A model generated the notes under the pieces. That model saw only the letters and a list, made by a program, of their open reading frames with translations, did no database searches and was not told where the DNA came from. 32,400 bases of DNA from Opitutales bacterium. Lineage in GTDB: Bacteria; Verrucomicrobiota; Verrucomicrobiia; Opitutales; Intestinicryptomonadaceae. A program made the position numbers and the translations under genes. This document shows, piece after piece, positions 20,711 to 23,681 of this stretch; position 1 is the first letter of the stretch; every line of letters begins with the position of its first letter. The DNA is taken from positions 1 to 32,400 of the forward strand of contig SUVP01000012.1 in the NCBI GenBank assembly GCA_015061945.1, written 5' to 3'.

Positions 20711-22156
20711 CTATTGCTCGGTAAATCTCCCCTCAATTTTATATTGCGAATTTACAAATTTTAATGTTTCGGCATTGCCTGCTGGCTTTTGGAAAAAACA
20801 ATCTTTTAAAACCAAATTTTTCGTATTTTCTGCATAGAATGCATGTCTGAATTCTGGTGCGTTATGCGTGATAAGTTGTATGTTCGCAAAAGTGATATTC
20901 TTTGCATTGCGAATAAAGAATCCGTACGCAGGCAACATCCTGCGAAACATACTGTTTTCGGGATATGCTTTTTTAGGATCACGAATCTTGTTGTGAATTG
21001 CCTTTTCTTCGACTCCACCCTTGATGTCAAAAATACAATTTTCTATGACCACATTTTCAAGCTCATACCCCTTTGGCGCAGTAATTGAACTTGTAATGAA
21101 ACTATCCGATACCGCAGTGATGTTCTTCATAAAAATATTTTTTGCAGAACTTTTCTTGCCCGTGGTGTTGTTTCTGTCGCGATTATCTACACGAATAAAA
21201 ATAGGCGTTTGTACACCTGTCATTGAGACATTTTCAATCTCTACTCCGTCAATTTTTCCGCCGTCAACAGCCTCAAGTGCGATTCCCGCAAGCCCAGTGT
21301 CAAGCCCCTCATCAACACCAAGCCTCTTATTCCTCCACCACTTAATTGGCGTATCTTTTGACGGCCTCGAAAGTACACAGTTGCGAACTTTTAGATTCTT
21401 GAAATCACTTTGCGTACCTGTGCCAATCTTTATGAAATTACATGAACTGGCAATCGCACAATTTTCGATTGTGATATTTTCAACAACAAAATCTTGGCTA
21501 TGCTCATTCTTTAAACAAATTCCATCATCGACAGCATTTATTACGCAGTTTGTTATCTTAACATTCTTACTGGCAATGTCTAAGCCGTCGTTATTGTGGT
21601 TTGCTTGAACATAAATGTTGAGCCTGTCGAGATTCACACCATCGCAATGTAAGAAAAATGCGTTCCAAAATGCAGGTGCAAGCATCGTCAAATTGTTCAA
21701 GTTTACATTTGTGCATCCGTCAAAAAGTATGTTGCGTGGACGATGTCTGCGCGCTTCTCCCTTGCTCGGAAATTTCTCACCCTGTCCACGTATAGTCCCG
21801 CCCTCAATGCCAATATTTTTCGCGTTTTTTGCATAAATAAGCGTGTAATTAAAATCATTGTCGGCAGTAGGAATATTGAGCTTGGGATAATCACTTGGAT
21901 TTTCACTTCCGAGAATTATAGTGTCAGGCTTGAGCTTTAAAACAACATTGTCCTTCATCACAAAAAAACCTGTCTTATACGTCCCCGACGGAAATATAAC
22001 TGCACCACCACCACTCGACGAACAATCATCTATCGCCTTCTGAATGAGTTCTGTGTTGAGGTTCTCATACCCCCCTCTTAACCCCGAAATCTTTACGTCA
22101 TCAGCAAGAACAAGACTCGCCGAAACAGAAAGAATAAATGCAAATACCTTTTTCAT
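20711..22156 (-). CDS. Secreted GH28-family pectin hydrolase (polygalacturonase/rhamnogalacturonase type)
   Basis: The 481-aa protein begins with a signal peptide (KKVFAFILSVSASLVLA). GGYENLNTELIQKAIDDC and GGAVIFPSGTY are the usual N-terminal blocks of GH28 beta-helix proteins, followed by the right-handed helix ladder. Catalytic region: NNDGLDIAS (residues 188-196) replaces NTDG, VDDGICLK supplies Asp210-Asp211, and SSCNFIKIGTGT stands where GHG and RIK occur in endopolygalacturonases. The missing His of GHG points to a rhamnogalacturonan- or exo-acting subgroup. Together with uxaC and kdgK it suggests use of pectin-derived galacturonate. A conserved DxxD-type beta-helix of another polysaccharidase family cannot be ruled out. 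It is the last gene before the inverted-repeat element. Confidence 0.85.
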   Translation of the reverse strand: MKKVFAFILSVSASLVLADDVKISGLRGGYENLNTELIQKAIDDCSSSGGGAVIFPSGTYKTGFFVMKDNVVLKLKPDTIILGSENPSDYPKLNIPTADNDFNYTLIYAKNAKNIGIEGGTIRGQGEKFPSKGEARRHRPRNILFDGCTNVNLNNLTMLAPAFWNAFFLHCDGVNLDRLNIYVQANHNNDGLDIASKNVKITNCVINAVDDGICLKNEHSQDFVVENITIENCAIASSCNFIKIGTGTQSDFKNLKVRNCVLSRPSKDTPIKWWRNKRLGVDEGLDTGLAGIALEAVDGGKIDGVEIENVSMTGVQTPIFIRVDNRDRNNTTGKKSSAKNIFMKNITAVSDSFITSSITAPKGYELENVVIENCIFDIKGGVEEKAIHNKIRDPKKAYPENSMFRRMLPAYGFFIRNAKNITFANIQLITHNAPEFRHAFYAENTKNLVLKDCFFQKPAGNAETLKFVNSQYKIEGRFTEQ

Positions 22157-22208
22157 GCAAAATAGTATTGTTTAGTATTGATGTTCCGTCAATATTTTTT
22201 TATTTGAA

Positions 22209-22272
22209 GGGCACCGGCGGACATTGCTGACGCAATAGTCCTTTGAAACGGGTTGCACAATTACACAGAAAA
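22209..22272 (+). repeat. Left terminal inverted repeat
   Basis: Matches the reverse complement of 22728-22791 with mismatches only at 22237 (A/C) and 22257 (T/G). TTTGA just outside (22203-22207) is also mirrored after one mismatch. The arm contains a bulged hairpin (22218-22240): GGAC/GTCC plus ATTGC/GCAAT around a TGAC loop. Confidence 0.93.
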
Positions 22273-22302
22273 ACTGGCAAAGCGTTGCCAGTTTTTCGTT
22301 TT
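22269..22302 (+). terminator. Terminator-like hairpin inside the left arm, pointing inward
   Basis: A perfect 12-bp stem (22269-22280 with 22285-22296, AGCG loop) is followed by CGTTTT. No plus-strand gene lies upstream that would need it, which suggests it belongs to the element itself. Confidence 0.7.
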
Positions 22303-22318
22303 AAGAATTTTTGATGTT

Positions 22319-22425
22319 GGGGAGGGTTGGTTGCACCCTCCCCAAACCCCACTGCAAGCAGGTGAGCCACCTGCACATCGTTGAAGGGGCGTTGCCCCTT
22401 ACGGAGATTGCATTCGCAATACTCC
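22319..22425 (+). repeat. Cluster of four short GC-rich hairpins
   Basis: Four consecutive perfect or near-perfect stem-loops: GGGGAGGG/CCCTCCCC (22319-22343), GCAGGTG/CACCTGC (22358-22374), AAGGGGC/GCCCCTT (22384-22400, GTT loop) and GGAG-ATTGC/GCAAT-a-CTCC (22403-22425). The last repeats the shape of the hairpin in the terminal arms. Confidence 0.8.
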
Positions 22426-22526
22426 TATCCTTGTTCGGATTTTTATTTGATGTGTGTTGCTATTTTAATGATTTAGTTTTTTAGAATAATAAAGAGGATG
22501 AACCGGTGCTTTTATTCTACCTCTTT

Positions 22527-22601
22527 GATATTCTATTGCCGTTATTGCCGGTGTAATTTGGCAATAACTAAAAATGTTGCACATTTTTACAATAGAATAT
22601 C
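22527..22601. other. Perfect three-stem junction (possible structured RNA or cruciform)
   Basis: A 12-bp outer stem (22527-22538 with 22590-22601) encloses two 9-bp hairpins: 22541-22549 with 22560-22568 (10-base loop) and 22569-22577 with 22581-22589 (TGC loop). All 30 pairs are Watson-Crick, and only two bases (CC, 22539-22540) are unpaired at the junction. A competing helix (22483-22497 with 22520-22534) overlaps the 5' strand of the outer stem. Confidence 0.75.
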
Positions 22602-22695
22602 GGGGGAATGCACCTACGCTTCCAGTCGATGTTTTACGGAGCTAAATGCGATGAATTGCAAGTTGCCACGCTTTTAAAAATACACCATTTAAAAC

Positions 22696-22731
22696 CTAAA
22701 ACGAAAACTCTCCAACGCCTTGGAGAGTTTT
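22696..22731 (-). terminator. Terminator-like hairpin inside the right arm, serving the TorF-like gene
   Basis: A perfect 12-bp stem (22704-22715 with 22720-22731) is followed on the minus strand by CGTTTTAGG. It lies about 70 bp after the stop of the TorF-like gene. Its stem sequence differs from the left-arm hairpin at five paired positions. Confidence 0.75.
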
Positions 22732-22791
22732 CTGTGTAATTGTGCCACCCGTTTCAAAGGACGATTGCGTCAGCAATGTCCGCCGGTGCCC
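22728..22791 (-). repeat. Right terminal inverted repeat
   Basis: Mirror copy of 22209-22272 (62 of 64 identical). It begins 11 bp after the stop codon of the TorF-like gene and includes the bulged ATTGC/GCAAT hairpin. Confidence 0.93.
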
Positions 22792-22802
22792 GTCAAAAAA
22801 AA

Positions 22803-23681
22803 CTAGAAGCCGAAGTCGACTTTACCGCCGAACCAGAAGTTATTTTCTCTGCCGAGGAGGCGATAATCTTGGTTTGGGTCGCCTTCATTGCCACCTTCAC
22901 GCATAGAGTATCTTACACCGCCGCTGATTGTGCAGTAGTCAGTGATAGAGAAAGCCAGGTCAGCACTTGCACCCCAGTAGAAGTAAGTTACGCCTTCATT
23001 TGGGGCACCGTTATCGCCATTTTTGCGACTTGCGGAGAGGTATCCGCCATAGACGCTAACAGGGAGTGTGAATCTACCGTCGTCGAGTAGCCATTCTCCG
23101 ACAGGGAGGGCGTAGCTGAGAGACACTTCGACAACTTGCTGTTTAAGAATCCAGTTATAGAAGTAGTAGACGGATGGGTTGAGGTTAATTCCGTTGAGGT
23201 ATGCCGAAGTATCGAAAGCACCGCCGACATATACTTCCATATCGCGTGAGATATTGTTGCGGGTCAGGTCAGTATCTGTGTAGTAGTAATAGATATAGCC
23301 GACATCGACGCGAAGTGATTTGTAGTAATAATTTACGCCGCCGTAGAGGTCGATTTCAGTCAAACCGCCTTTAGAGCCTTGAATTGGGGTATTTGCCCAA
23401 GCGCCGACATAGAGGTCGAAACCATAGATTGGGTAGGCAAATTCAATTTTTGGTTGGATAGAGTGCCCTGCGAATTTTTCGCCACGGAACATATACTGCG
23501 ATTCATATCCGACTGCGGCAGATACGCTCAGGAGCGATATTGACAAGTCAGGAGCGACGTCTTGGACGAGGCTTGCTCCGCCTTGCAAGGTTGAAGAAAT
23601 TGTAGTTAATGGGGCATCGATTGTCTGTGCGAACGAGACAGATGTCGCCATCATTGCCAAAGCTGAAATAAATTTTTTCAT
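22803..23681 (-). CDS. TorF-family putative outer-membrane porin
   Basis: The 292-aa protein has a signal peptide (MKKFISALAMMATSVSFA) and then many alternating aromatic beta-strands, ending in Phe (KVDFGF), as expected for an outer-membrane barrel. The block YESQYMFRGEKFAGHSIQPK, followed by YVGAWANTP and LTEIDLYGGVNYYY, is typical of the TorF/Gcw_chp family (TIGR02001-like), whose members are presumed porins of unknown substrate. It is monocistronic: the ahcY terminator lies upstream and a hairpin of the inverted-repeat element downstream. The stop codon is almost touching that element, so the element may have supplied its 3' end. No SD is visible. Confidence 0.83.
   Translation of the reverse strand: MKKFISALAMMATSVSFAQTIDAPLTTISSTLQGGASLVQDVAPDLSISLLSVSAAVGYESQYMFRGEKFAGHSIQPKIEFAYPIYGFDLYVGAWANTPIQGSKGGLTEIDLYGGVNYYYKSLRVDVGYIYYYYTDTDLTRNNISRDMEVYVGGAFDTSAYLNGINLNPSVYYFYNWILKQQVVEVSLSYALPVGEWLLDDGRFTLPVSVYGGYLSASRKNGDNGAPNEGVTYFYWGASADLAFSITDYCTISGGVRYSMREGGNEGDPNQDYRLLGRENNFWFGGKVDFGF

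Follow-up and report, generated by a model that had tools for sequence, protein, structure and literature searches.

The hairpin-rich element at positions 22209-22791 is probably a long member of a species-restricted, non-autonomous mosaic family of palindromic repeats, whose end modules would serve as terminators at gene ends. The building block of the family is an arm of ~107 bp, typically starting ~12 nt or less from a stop codon, and the long form consists of two inverted arms around two body modules, M1 and M2, found in about 11 places. The window analysed (32.4 kb) is the entire contig C5 of the 2.5-Mb, 15-contig, 97% complete genome of an uncultured Opitutales bacterium (G000); judged by its AdoHcyase, the nearest named record is the uncultured Opitutales MAG BRZ_GG__bin115 (88%).

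The ends of the element are inverted repeats, as the original prediction held: the first 64 nt and the reverse-complemented last 64 nt differ at 2 positions (62/64 identical). The repeat is longer than claimed, extending to 106 nt with 86% complementarity (22198-22303 and 22697-22802), and no other inverted repeat in the window comes close to this length; the near-identity of the two ends is confined to the outer ~64 bp. With the T-rich outer ends counted, the 583-bp element reaches ~605 bp. On the right, 11 bp separate the 583-bp unit from the stop codon (TAG) of the gene at 22803-23681, which is encoded on the minus strand. The placement 11 bp after a stop codon, noted originally, is thus right as a distance; the 11-bp T-rich stretch is itself part of the repeat, with a consensus (TTTTATATGAC) common to other copies, so that the gap between stop codon and element is truly zero. 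The product of this gene is probably a secreted, beta-barrel-like protein, judged by eye. On the other side, the promoter-like site of the GH28-family gene is intact within the 52 bp separating the element from that gene.

Folded as a single strand, the 583 nt have an energy of -283 kcal/mol (dinucleotide shuffles, -152 +/- 6.7; z = -19.4), a value reached by 0/100 shuffles, in agreement with the palindromic, hairpin-rich interior described at the outset. The interior is also free of genes, as had been stated, with no ORF of at least 80 aa lying wholly within the element; a 116-aa frame (22740-23090) begins in the right arm and exits across the antisense of the neighbouring gene. The scan of the element region against Rfam 15 gave no family match (best E 0.84, far under the gathering score).

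Table 1. Features of the element, its neighbours and the recombinase gene copies (window coordinates unless a contig is given).
Feature	Position	Strand	Details
Left arm	22198..22304	+	R1 covariance model, 115 bits; alignment of 29 arms
hp1, left arm	22219..22241	+	GGAC-ATTGC-loop-GCAAT-a-GTCC
Terminator-like hairpin, left arm	22268..22297	+	13-bp stem, 4-nt loop, A-tract before, T-tract after
Module M1	22317..22440	+	Four hairpins and CTATCC...GGATTTTT tail
M1 hairpins	22317-22345, 22358-22374, 22384-22400, 22403-22425		
Module M2	22483..22640	+	Highly conserved core
M2 outer stem GGTGC/GCACC	22505-22509 / 22610-22614		Encloses three-way junction
M2 three-way junction	22527-22538 / 22590-22601		Closed by GATATTCTATTG/CAATAGAATATC
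Right arm, inverted	22696..22802	-	R1 match, 117 bits; abuts stop of upstream gene, distance 0
Terminator-like hairpin, right arm	22703..22732	-	GAAAACTCTCCAA-GGCG-TTGGAGAGTTTTC, then GTTTTAG
hp1, right arm	22759..22781	-	Left-arm allele except one base
Upstream gene	22803..23681	-	292 aa, signal-peptide protein ending DFGF; no Pfam match
GH28-family gene, other side of the element	20711-22156	-	
Promoter-like site of the GH28-family gene	22164..22192	-	TTGACG-17-AATACT; consensus match only
331-aa tyrosine recombinase gene copies, G000	C11:42225-43217 (L005:314-1306), C6:27379-28362, C2:345950-346942		

Read from the outside in, the arm consists of the T-rich end, GGGCACCGRC, a REP-like hairpin (hp1), GGGTTGC, and a terminator-like hairpin with a 13-bp stem, an A-tract before it and a T-tract after it. 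In the left arm of the window copy these parts appear as the T-rich outer end TTTTATTTGAA, followed by GGGCACCGGC, the two hairpins and TTTTCGTTTTAA. The outer end contains a CGTC motif (CCCGTC) ~ten bases off hp1, unlike the published CGTC families. The inner stem of hp1 (ATTGC/GCAAT) is mostly constant, and its outer stem varies between copies by allele. At least six alleles are found for hp1 and at least four for the terminator-like stem (ACTCTCC, AACTGGC, AACTGCC and GACCACC). They occur in many combinations, and the two arms of one copy often differ; the terminator-like stem of the window copy is AACTGGC in the left arm and ACTCTCC in the right. The covariance model of the element ends (R1; 29 sequences, 20 pairs) shows compensatory changes in 10/20 consensus pairs, which represent fewer independent events than the counts suggest, given a handful of alleles spread by recombination. 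The pattern scan for terminator-like sites was at chance level (2 found, 1.6 expected), with the right-arm hairpin among the 2.

The long form is laid out as arm, four-hairpin M1, highly conserved core M2 and inverted arm. The mean identity is 96% in M1 and M2 versus 77% in the arms of the long copies. Across ten copies of M1, the variable columns are 1/78 of the paired and 13/46 of the unpaired positions (Fisher p = 8e-6), and in M2 they are 6/88 paired versus 4/23 unpaired, which on its own is not significant. None of the 113 pairs of M1 and M2 shows a compensatory change and the stems hardly vary, so the structure of the body rests on conservation, without covariation. Because the stems barely change, M1 and M2 are likely to work in a folded form, as DNA or RNA. 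Part of the M1-M2 region is duplicated in tandem in three copies (C11, C4 and C8). Elsewhere in the genome (C3; L279:2900-3200), an M1-like array has its start in the final codons of an aldolase-like gene (275 aa); the TGA stop of this gene sits in a hairpin loop of the array.

The genome-wide search proposed with the original prediction revealed a multicopy family. About 11 long copies were found at the DNA level, the window copy and ten others that are 583-607 bp long or truncated and share 85-94% identity with it, together with many short matches to an end only. The R1 covariance search detected about 43 arms at E < 1e-5. Arms also occur solo, in tandem or truncated, and decayed pieces are present as well. 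The long copies occupy non-orthologous sites (glycogen phosphorylase/MscS, PFL/recombinase, L-PSP/propeller, NusA, YbaB and others), and a single copy kept at the same locus in all relatives is clearly not what was found.

Among 54 relatives, the full element had no match save a 36-50-nt hairpin part of M1 in G001. There it is present in a tandem array and also downstream of PEP-CTERM-type genes, and the stem sequences of this M1-related module differ from those of G000. The M1 hairpin pattern is found in these two genomes only, among 373. The G001 array (L029:1480-2150; C2:703.1-703.8 kb) comprises ~nine 72-bp units around the M1 hairpin TTACGGAGATTGC...GCAATGCTCCTATCC. For the M2 region, the only other match among 273 genomes of the order is a 24-nt one in G185, which is chance-like and was rejected as a relative, and the scan of genome contigs with the M2 core gave no match. 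In 19 family members searched with the arm model, true relatives were detected only in G009, a genome of the same genus, in the form of TTTTATATGTTGGGCACCG followed by a GGAGATTGC/GCAATACTCC hairpin; the weak matches in G012, G013, G015, G017 and G018 are plain terminators by appearance and not relatives. G009 also contains repeated long palindromic mosaics of its own (L190, L196, L198 and L200; AAAACGTGCGAG..., AAAACGTGTGTGGTG...), in which terminator-like hairpins of variable stems lie within nested inverted repeats. These mosaics adjoin arm-like units with the outer end of the window element's family and an hp1-like hairpin. The plasmid and phage collections gave no match to the full element, and the phages none to M1. 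Viral contigs matched neither M2 nor the M1 hairpin, and none of their 14 matches to the short arm pattern is supported by the arm model. As all matches are confined to the element's own genome, except for the sub-modules in the congeneric G001 and G009, the family is species-restricted, with sub-modules shared within the genus.

The arms are closely associated with stop codons. For ORFs of at least 90 codons, the arm starts no more than 12 nt from the stop of a sense ORF in 26/44 arms and of an antisense ORF in 1, versus a mean of 0.9 and a maximum of 4 for arms shifted by 30-400 nt (400 trials). In several cases the stop codon falls inside the T-rich end of the arm. The glycogen phosphorylase encoded on C10 ends with IWHLL-stop, its last Leu and stop being supplied by the arm's TTTTATAG; in several relatives the enzyme ends with IWKL-stop. 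One arm has its start where a tRNA-Leu gene ends, and another sits after the T-tract of the apparent native terminator of the EF-Ts gene. The nine long copies with both neighbours known lie between convergent (5) or co-directional (4) genes and never between divergent ones, with the right arm on the stop side in 9/9. At several copies PEP-CTERM-like protein ends were recognised by eye, which is consistent with Verrucomicrobiota, and short AT-rich TTCGTTTTAGTTGTTAGATTATTTATTCTTTTTTT repeats follow one solo arm in tandem (L045:1400-1535; G000 C2:169.9-170.0 kb).

Homologues of the gene at 22803-23681 are present in 12 congeneric genomes, and 0/12 carry the element on the 3' side, most having an unrelated terminator there; the glycogen phosphorylase gene likewise lacks the element at its 3' side in 12 congeners, although the downstream gene order differs, so that these are comparisons of gene ends and not of exact empty sites. 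At the borders of seven complete copies, neither a target-site duplication nor a consistent direct repeat was found. Four sites (C12:32756, C4:223144, C11:49177 and C9:20300) show a truncated older arm in front of the new one, both in the same orientation. The break in the older arm differs from site to site, and in the cases read its lost portion did not reappear beyond the new arm. This arrangement is more readily reconciled with replacement or recombination at the gene end than with a simple insertion that splits an intact arm.

From their shape and place, the arms would terminate transcription of the gene that they abut, and with a stem followed by a T-tract, in a nearly symmetric arrangement, the terminator could work from both sides. 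With arms of this function, the 3' side of a gene would be a tolerated intergenic site, and the hairpins would keep pairing while their sequence changes. The copies presumably spread by a trans-acting activity, and our guess is that M1 and M2 might be what this activity recognises. Existing arms would then be replaced and shuffled by recombination between copies, as suggested by the truncated older arms beside new ones and by the hairpin alleles in many combinations. A bolder reading, to which we give little credence, places the arms at stops by a specific mechanism, for instance copying or integration coupled to the ends of transcripts or to terminator T-tracts, with replacement of the gene 3' end instead of cut-and-paste and with M1/M2 recognised as folded nucleic acid. 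Should the placement be active rather than selected, the mode of spreading would be beyond that of known transposases.

The suggestion of a non-autonomous mobile element survives in part: the copy number, the non-orthologous sites and the absence from 13 congeneric species are mobile-like, but the label of a classic MITE is unsupported because no target-site duplication was found at seven complete copies and, in the draft genome, no transposase whose ends match. Descent from an insertion sequence by deletion, with mobilisation in trans through a transposase specific for the inverted ends, would explain the long inverted ends, the gene-free interior, the moderate copy number, the intergenic sites and the patchy distribution. 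Such an origin is unlikely, however, in view of the seven complete copies that lack a target-site duplication, the often differing hairpin alleles at the two ends of one copy, and the many solo ends, which are not expected from a unit transposing end to end. Between arm pairs no transposase was found, in a draft genome with contig breaks inside copies and with a genome-wide transposase search that covered the Y1_Tnp family only. That search gave no match to RAYT (Y1_Tnp, PF01797) in the 97% complete assembly, with five control genomes positive. Only one pair of arms at most 2 kb apart has a gene between them, and this gene codes for a Sel1-repeat protein. At this locus (C14:257819-259637; L201:2820-4638) two diverged arms flank a 393-aa gene, and both carry the same unusual terminator stem, GATAACCTCAA/TTGAGGTTATC.

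A 331-aa tyrosine recombinase (PF00589) ends exactly at the start of M1 in the C11 copy, and in C14 M1 adjoins a decayed remnant of the 3' part of this gene. The element might be a non-autonomous derivative of this recombinase, with M1/M2 as its recombination site, the more so as several copies of the gene, some of them decayed, occur throughout the genus and family, and as the 3' ends of RAYT genes are captured in BIMEs (PMC2817692). We nevertheless consider this derivation improbable. Neither M1, M2 nor an arm lies beside the other two full copies in G000 or beside seven in relatives (L268-L274), for which reason we treat the recombinase as a neighbour, with a residual chance of a closer relation; M1 also abuts the stop codons of other genes. 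Most of the recombinase copies read have inverted repeats of the AGTATT-NNN-AATACT type (AGTATTNNNAATACT-type) on their upstream side, in the gap towards a divergent gene, which suggests a promoter-inversion (phase variation) switch. It is very improbable that the arms are host terminators homogenised at gene ends by recombination and not mobile at all. The tight placement at stop codons in sense orientation, the resemblance of the arms to functional terminators, and the truncated older arms, whose remainder was not seen beyond the new ones, would suit that explanation; yet in 12 congeneric species the orthologous genes have unrelated sequence at their ends, for the most part ordinary terminators, and the presence of a conserved 400-bp M1-M2 body at ~11 unrelated loci requires that a unit be copied, as opposed to point replacement.

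In comparison with known systems, integron attC sites were considered and set aside, as the arms follow housekeeping and tRNA genes singly. The element has the terminal inverted repeats of a MITE and no transposase gene inside, and shares with Correia elements and other MITEs the inverted ends, the intergenic location, the multiple copies and a potential to affect transcripts (PMC10969869). Correia elements have 26-bp ends, lie mostly upstream of genes and carry promoters (PMC10969869), in contrast to the 106-bp ends, the stop-codon placement and the terminator-like hairpins seen here. Like REP, BIME and REPIN sequences, hp1 is an extragenic imperfect palindrome of 20-40 bp (PMC2817692, PMC3116915, PMC3733652), and the inverted pairs, the mosaics, the preference for the 3' side of genes and the compensatory stem variants are also shared. 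The differences are the missing GTAG tag, the lack of a RAYT (Y1_Tnp) match in the 97% complete assembly, the ~107-bp arm with its terminator-like hairpin, and the fixed 400-bp body between inverted arms.

The pneumococcal SPRITE is a terminator-like repeat with 30 copies, for which target duplication is not established; it is enriched close to the 3' ends of genes and in the gaps of convergent gene pairs, and co-option as terminators has been suggested (PMC3049150). The arms likewise combine a terminator-like stem and a U-rich tract near gene 3' ends. By its description, SPRITE has an 18-bp stem and ends consisting only of AAAA/TTTT, whereas the arm has a 13-bp stem and a GGGCACCG-type end, adds a REP-like hairpin and abuts the stop codon itself, and arm pairs enclose the conserved structured body of 400 bp. 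BOX of S. pneumoniae is a modular composite of 67-637 bp with a variable number of modules (PMC3049150), and is similarly strongly folded and confined to a few related species (PMC3049150). It is set apart, also by description, by its boxA/B/C modules, the end modules here being independent terminator-like repeats, and by target-site duplications, which the seven complete copies lack. The sharp contrast originally drawn with MITEs and REP/BIME was overdrawn, since the element is composed of REP-like and terminator-like units that can stand alone as well, a trait of BIME, BOX and SPRITE.

The best reading of the sequences is that of a real, new composite repeat family, most like pneumococcal SPRITE/BOX and REP/BIME. 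It is unusual in its tight abutment to stop codons, in the fixed structured body between inverted terminator-like arms and in showing no sign of a transposase between arms. The family exemplifies small repeats that take over the 3' ends of genes as far as the stop codon itself, and it adds a composite repeat with terminator-like modules to Verrucomicrobiota, for which the papers considered name only the GTAG-type REPs of O. terrae (PMC3733652).
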